The notes below the pieces were generated by a model. It searched no databases. It was not told where the DNA came from and saw nothing but the letters and a program-made list of their open reading frames with translations. Of a stretch of 64,000 nt of DNA, positions 37,005 through 37,323 are shown one piece after another; the stretch's first letter is position 1; the number at the start of each line of letters is the position of its first letter. Position numbers and translations under genes: made by a program. This stretch comes from Verrucomicrobiia bacterium. Its GTDB lineage: Bacteria > Verrucomicrobiota > Verrucomicrobiia > Verrucomicrobiales > Akkermansiaceae. The stretch spans positions 124,001 to 188,000 of the forward strand of contig CANHQJ010000006.1 of the NCBI GenBank assembly GCA_947462875.1, given 5' to 3'.

Positions 37005-37073
37005 GAAAGGAAAAAGCCGATGATCCTTGAGGATGAACGGCTTTTATTGGTTGCGGGAGTAGGATTTGAACCT
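37005..37073. repeat. Copy of tRNA-fMet 3' end plus terminator (direct repeat, copy 1)
   Basis: 69 bases matching 37204-37272 with two mismatches (at 37020 and 37035). It contains a copy of the terminator hairpin and the last 26 bases of the minus-strand tRNA-fMet (acceptor strand with CCA, and T-arm) at 37048-37073. Downstream sequence (37074-37108) keeps only scraps of the tRNA, such as the TTATGAG anticodon-loop heptamer. Confidence 0.85.
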
Positions 37074-37112
37074 TTGATCCCGCTCAGCGGGATTATGAGC
37101 CAATAGAGAAAT

Positions 37113-37141
37113 TGGTTGCGGGAGTAGGATTTGAACCTACG
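37113..37141. repeat. Second partial copy of tRNA-fMet 3' end
   Basis: 29 bases identical to the 3' end of tRNA-fMet (37247-37275), without the terminator part. The following 60 bases contain the short direct repeat GTGTTCACACY (37168-37190). With copy 1 it gives three tRNA 3' ends within 275 bases, as left by repeated site-specific integration. Confidence 0.85.
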
Positions 37142-37209
37142 GCGAAATTTTCAAACATGCACGAAAGTGTTCACACTTGGTGTTCACACCTGCTCTCAGC
37201 TTAGAAAGG

Positions 37210-37244
37210 AAAAAGCCGCTGATCCTTGAGGATTAACGGCTTTT
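37210..37244 (-). terminator. Terminator of tRNA-fMet
   Basis: On the minus strand, AAAAGCCGTTAATCC-TCAA-GGATCAGCGGCTTTTT forms a stem with one mismatched and one wobble region, followed by a T-run, directly after the tRNA. A duplicate of it lies at 37011-37045. Confidence 0.8.
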
Positions 37245-37246
37245 AT

Positions 37247-37323
37247 TGGTTGCGGGAGTAGGATTTGAACCTACGACCTTCAGGTTATGAGCCTGACGAG
37301 CTACCTGGCTGCTCCATCCCGCG
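37247..37323 (-). tRNA. Initiator tRNA-fMet (anticodon CAT), CCA encoded
   Basis: 77 bases that fold as a full cloverleaf. Initiator traits: the unpaired C1-A72 end, and GG at 30-31 of the anticodon stem. The stem is TCAGG/CCTGA, so the usual G29-C41 pair is A29-T41. The T-arm is GTAGG-TTCAAAT-CCTAC and CCA is in the DNA. Confidence 0.95.

Follow-up and report, generated by a model that had tools for sequence, protein, structure and literature searches.

Tandem tRNA-fMet 3' ends in a Verrucomicrobiia genome as the probable remnant of a small mobile GIY-YIG nuclease module

Three tRNA-fMet 3' ends lie within 230 bp of each other in a Verrucomicrobiia genome, in a stretch of 64,000 nucleotides (hereafter the window, meaning the whole stretch of DNA analysed), and probably represent what decay has left of the right end of a small mobile nuclease module. 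The site is a genuine remnant of a mobile element, of a kind other than the integrase attachment (att) scar put forward in the original prediction. An intact module is proposed to begin with tRNA-fMet, followed by a GIY-YIG ORF whose stop codon is the TAA within a copy of the anticodon loop, then a palindrome, then a T arm with acceptor end and CCA, and last a terminator, with the palindrome taking the place of the 3' strand of the anticodon stem and the variable loop. In the window the ORF would have been lost and the palindrome core and the 3' ends left behind.

The tRNA-fMet site and its palindrome core

All the features of the site lie on the minus strand. The complete tRNA-fMet gene with its encoded CCA (37247..37323; ARAGORN; Rfam RF00005, 64.8 bits) is followed directly by a terminator (37204..37246), identical at 37 of 43 positions to the orthologous terminator of the related genome G004, and by a downstream flank (37142..37203) that contains ACACCAAGTGTGAACACTTT and aligns as orthologous to the empty site of that genome. 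The 31-nt 3' end of the tRNA (37245-37275) recurs twice, from T arm to CCA: as copy 2 at 37111..37141, identical at 31/31 positions and carrying neither anticodon loop nor palindrome, and as the outer copy 1 at 37046..37076, with two mismatches (29/31 identical). Copy 1 has a duplicate of the terminator behind it (37005..37045) and, as a weaker continuation, a duplicated flank (36969..37004). Only 2 of 69 positions differ between 37005-37073 and 37204-37272, and the longer outer repeat (36969-37073 against 37168-37272) is identical at 87 of 105 positions (83%), with a repeat spacing of 199 bp. No further copy of the 31-nt end was found within 9 mismatches on either strand elsewhere in the window, and across five shuffled versions of the window the best matches had 11-13 mismatches. 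The predicted tandem arrangement of three ends, as well as the extension of the outer copy into the terminator over 69 bases with two mismatches, was thereby borne out; a feature missing from the prediction is that the outer copy extends past the T arm, through a palindrome, to the anticodon loop.

Beyond its T arm, copy 1 continues with GATC, the palindrome (37077-37093) and the anticodon loop CTCATAA / GGCTCATAA (37093-37101). Read in the direction of the tRNA, GGCTCATAA leads into the palindrome TCCCGC-TGA-GCGGGA, with TC separating it from the T arm. The core thus delimited (37077..37101), which adjoins GIY-YIG ORFs in other genomes, comprises GGCTCATAA and the palindrome, ATCCCGC-TGA-GCGGGAT with its flanking pair. 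The form TCCCGC-n-GCGGGA stands in for eight bases at which the real tRNA has CCTGAAGG, and this replacement is confined to the broken copy while the complete tRNA-fMet persists alongside. A genome-wide search found the palindrome once in the whole genome, at the window copy. When folded as RNA, copy 1 is predicted to form a minihelix in which GCGGGA pairs with the acceptor strand (-14.4 kcal/mol, z -1.82), which is suggestive only. A full-length tRNA-fMet carrying the palindrome occurs at L071 6702-6783 (minus strand) with a normal tRNA-fMet nearby, and may represent an unsplit form of the core.

Nuclease modules in related genomes

The same-genus genome G002 carries the module interrupted by contig ends: one contig end holds tRNA-fMet with the terminator, the nuclease ORF in full and the first part of the core, CCGGCTCATAATCCCGCTGA, and a second holds the tail of the same ORF followed by the core, 3' half and terminator. 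The loop of its core is identical in sequence to that of the window. G004, in turn, provides the orthologous empty site with a single tRNA-fMet 3' end; its neighbouring proteins are 94.7%, 84% and 84% identical to those of the window, and the window has 394 bp between the tRNA and the next gene where G004 has 209 bp, a difference similar to the 199-bp repeat spacing. Close relatives thus present complete (G002), empty (G004) and remnant (window) alleles, the matched neighbour genes being those of G004. For another genome, G252, no empty site was obtained within its genus, the flanks having failed to align through the site. No remnant of the nuclease was found in the window, which would correspond to a module minus its ORF, the former presence of the ORF being suggested by the core. 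The coreless copy 2 may represent either an att relic or a second unit in a more advanced state of decay.

The association of the core with the nuclease was examined using an alignment of 12 nucleases as the query, a selection independent of the core and so free of core-selection bias. In the class, 22 nuclease loci were identified at E<=1e-28 in 20 of 335 genomes, each with the core (22/22), and in the family the core accompanied 5/5 loci with E<=1e-33, the contig ending inside the core in G002. Together, and counting the contig-cut G002 site, the palindrome is present in 27/27 nuclease-selected loci; none of the 11 weaker family homologues (E 1.3e-19 to 7.5e-16) had a core beside it. Two loci of this set have both sides of the stem altered with the pairing intact (TCCCGT/ACGGGA in L220 and TCCGGC/GCCGGA in L233), and among the cores selected by pattern, the two end bases of the loop pair in 48 of the 71 with loops of >= 4 bases, indicating that the hairpin itself is maintained.

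The module ORFs, of about 85-95 codons, match PF01541 (E 7e-11 to 4e-13), and Y5, Y15, G17, R25 and E61, which are presumed to be the conserved residues of the GIY-YIG catalytic domain, are invariant across the nucleases of 12 relatives. The catalytic domain of a GIY-YIG homing endonuclease is accordingly present in the ORFs of the relatives, the window itself having no ORF. Among pairs of nuclease genes of equal length and 70-98% DNA identity, dN/dS was 0.06-0.25 in 10 of 11; the nuclease protein is therefore kept functional by purifying selection. The remaining pair, two L120 copies with few changes, gave 1.0. The nuclease tree, in which few columns resolve, tracks the phyla, with Acidobacteriota forming one clade; movement of the nuclease across phyla was considered and dropped, as the tree follows the phyla with no clear transfer. 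No nuclease was confirmed in the IMG/VR viral contigs by tblastn, weak similarity was seen in 1 of 50,697 phage and 8 of 72,556 plasmid records, and the one ORF searched against PHROG matched no family.

A complementary survey with the exact core pattern CTCATAATCCCGCN{0,15}GCGGGATC in a species-level genome collection yielded 96 stretches, 80 of which were examined; the pattern was present in 14 of 288 genomes of the order and in none of the viral contigs. A complete tRNA-fMet lies <= 1.5 kb from the core in 60 of the 80, a recognisable tRNA-fMet half is fused to the core in 59, and 14 stretches hold more than one core. A GIY-YIG ORF or fragment immediately precedes the core in 46/80, while a mirrored form, with the tRNA 5' half ahead of the core, is found in 13/80, the nuclease lying behind the core in 8 of those 13. 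Within 700 bp of the core, a full GIY-YIG ORF is present in 39 and a fragment in 19 of the 80 (58 together). The stop codon is the TAA of the anticodon loop CTCATAA in 29 of 44 full GIY-YIG ORFs. The clearest single module is L097 5121-5945, and the largest arrays hold three ORFs and four cores (L136); the matches at L094 and L112 are probably due to chance. Against the module reading stand the window, in which no nuclease remnant is left, the 22 of 80 core loci with neither ORF nor fragment within 700 bp, contig ends counted in, and the 21 of 80 in which the pattern used recognises no tRNA half. Extra palindromes of the same type are inserted into broken tRNA copies at L073, L131, L123, L142 and L096, either within the T loop or at the CCA end.

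Integrase islands and other explanations

The original prediction held that elements had integrated at the tRNA more than once and left att remnants. In this case, tyrosine-integrase islands would have integrated at the anticodon loop, and the 3' halves at their distal ends would be what remains of them. Among 57 relatives searched, with 20 stretches read, the islands that had been expected at tRNA-fMet did occur, in 6 genomes (G018, G021, G023, G037, G051 and G054), on the same contig as the tRNA and 5-75 kb from it. A tyrosine-recombinase-like gene lies close to an end of each of the six islands, supported by PF00589 above the cut-off in G021 and G051 and below it in G018, and by PHROG integrases (E 6.5e-22 to 3.5e-26) in G023, G037 and G054. 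The copy at the distal end of these islands is an exact 3' half from the anticodon loop, which retains CCTGAAGG and has no palindrome. Copies with the palindrome, like that of the window, were found in 11 of the 57 relatives (BLAST rows covering the core), often 120-150 bp past tRNA-fMet with their own terminator and elsewhere beyond an island. The islands with exact 3'-half copies include those on G021 C14 and G051 C160, and past the end of the G051 island sits a complete nuclease module.

The islands of the relatives and the exact 3' end in copy 2 speak for att remnants; however, copy 1 carries the palindrome that the island copies lack, the palindrome accompanies the nuclease ORF throughout the nuclease-selected set, and no PF00589 match was found on the contig of the window (C6), the integrase matches of the genome all lying elsewhere. 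The last result agrees with the prediction that no integrase gene is left in the window. Copy 1 is not an exact tRNA 3' half, and copy 2 is too short to judge. Integrase islands, kilobases long and with exact 3' halves, share with the module the tRNA target gene and the duplication of its 3' half, and differ in their size, the integrase and the lack of a palindrome. The predicted integration hotspot that now holds remnants only is retained, while the palindrome-bearing copy, which has the signature of a GIY-YIG module, does not fit an att site. An att origin is possible for copy 2 (37111-37141), and is unlikely as an explanation of the site.

A tandem duplication of the tRNA 3' region that arose simply through unequal recombination, with no element involved, would be in keeping with the terminator and part of the flank being duplicated along with the tRNA end, and with the ORF-less units known from the elongator tRNA-Met array of the same genome (see below). 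It is nevertheless highly improbable, as it leaves unexplained a palindrome common to several phyla and the nuclease in the same-genus copy, and is already contradicted for copy 1.

A dispersed palindromic repeat of the REP or dRS3 type, inserted in a tRNA pseudogene, is suggested by the resemblance of CCCGC-n-GCGGG to the Neisseria element ATTCCC(N8)GGGAAT and by the further palindromes that some modules carry at the CCA end or in the T loop. Palindromes of this Neisseria type are linked to GIY-YIG nucleases (Ssn); support for such a link was not found in the literature searched. The dRS3 and CGTC-1 elements are described as short CCC..GGG palindromes that are targets of phage integration and present in hundreds of dispersed copies (PMC3898611, PMC3733652), in contrast to the tRNA-tied palindrome of the module. 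With its single copy in the genome, a dispersed repeat is a most improbable source of the site.

A remnant of a group I intron, for which tRNA-fMet serves as a host gene in cyanobacteria, can practically be dismissed, as no intron family was detected at E<=0.1 in seven intact-module loci or at E<=1 around the window site, and the complete tRNA-fMet is uninterrupted.

Proposed mechanism and related modules

The decayed nuclease module being the preferred explanation, its closest precedent is SegB, a free-standing GIY-YIG homing endonuclease of the T-even phages T4/T6, which cuts inside tRNA genes at the motif RAWTSGAAC and whose nuclease activity is needed for the tandem amplification of tRNA-segB through homologous recombination (PMC13096335). 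On the other strand this motif reads like a T loop. Both systems place a GIY-YIG nuclease beside tRNA genes; SegB is a phage gene, whereas the module nuclease is chromosomal and miniature, and a palindrome core and an ORF ending in the anticodon loop are not mentioned for SegB in the available part of that source (PMC13096335). By this analogy, the module would home into tRNA-fMet genes: the nuclease would cut module-free copies of the gene, repair by homologous recombination would copy in the nuclease and palindrome, and the recipient's own 3' half would end up displaced downstream, with tandem arrays arising from repeated rounds or unequal recombination. The palindrome probably disables the broken tRNA copy and either removes the cut site or alters it. 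As a first guess, its role is to take the cut site out of the broken copy, and as a second, to serve as the nuclease target.

The origin of the 3' halves was examined in 35 copies at 27 loci, all of them with a standard tRNA and 3' half. Their mean identity is 0.95 to the tRNA of their own locus against 0.78 to those of other loci, and the three bases at the start of the T stem match in 32/35 comparisons with the own locus against 56/910 with others. The 3' halves therefore derive from the local tRNA, which fits repair-driven insertion into the resident gene or concerted evolution with it. The main difficulty is the intact tRNA-fMet of the donor, as self-cutting must somehow be avoided; the authors of the SegB report pose a comparable question for their phage (PMC13096335).

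The GIY-YIG genes of the same genome, one of which is UvrC, include three near-copies, 78-90% alike, at C2:28263 (L164), C15:69694 (L165) and C29:5018 (L167), which appear to have spread within the genome. Two lie directly after tRNA-Ser(GGA) and tRNA-Ser(GCT), and both of these carry a palindrome of 68 bp as well as a copied tRNA-Ser end of 20-30 nt; the third has no tRNA. A further array, interrupted by assembly breaks, spans the contig ends C22:76131-76266 (L207) and C1:1-520 (L209). It begins with a tRNA-Met, continues with tandem 90-bp units with CCCCGAC-n-GTCGGGG instead of the anticodon arm, and terminates in a GIY-YIG ORF with its stop within the copied D loop. The arrayed tRNA reads as the elongator type and is called tRNA-Met(cat) by ARAGORN. 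Its core was found as an exact pattern in 2 of 189 genomes of the order, and the variant is therefore not widespread in this form. A different GIY-YIG ORF follows immediately after tRNA-Asn at L092 2778-3120. The small single-domain GIY-YIG protein UPF0213 (PDB 1zg2; E 6.4e-8) resembles the module nuclease in size and organisation, and is not known to be linked to a tRNA or palindrome.

No earlier description of such modules was found in the literature searched, in which fungal mitochondrial and phage papers predominate; as judged from the sequences, the novelty here lies in putative homing-type, free-standing nuclease genes that are miniature, sit in the chromosome and are fused with both a tRNA and a palindrome. 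More speculatively, each GIY-YIG subfamily could be tied to one tRNA and to its own palindrome supplanting part of the anticodon region, as one selfish unit that may compete with integrative islands by cutting tRNA att sites. Such a general class is a tentative proposal, less likely to hold than to fail; if true, the genome studied here would harbour three kinds, the fMet scar, the elongator-Met array and the Ser modules.

Duplicated tRNA ends are usually taken for the att sites of integrases, and many of those in Verrucomicrobiota, Acidobacteriota and other lineages would mark nuclease modules of ~350 bp, for which the palindrome provides a diagnostic and searchable sign. The modules would constitute a chromosomal counterpart to the phage SegB, yield a defined prediction of the cut site and raise the puzzle of how a nuclease whose home is the initiator tRNA gene avoids harming the cell that carries it.
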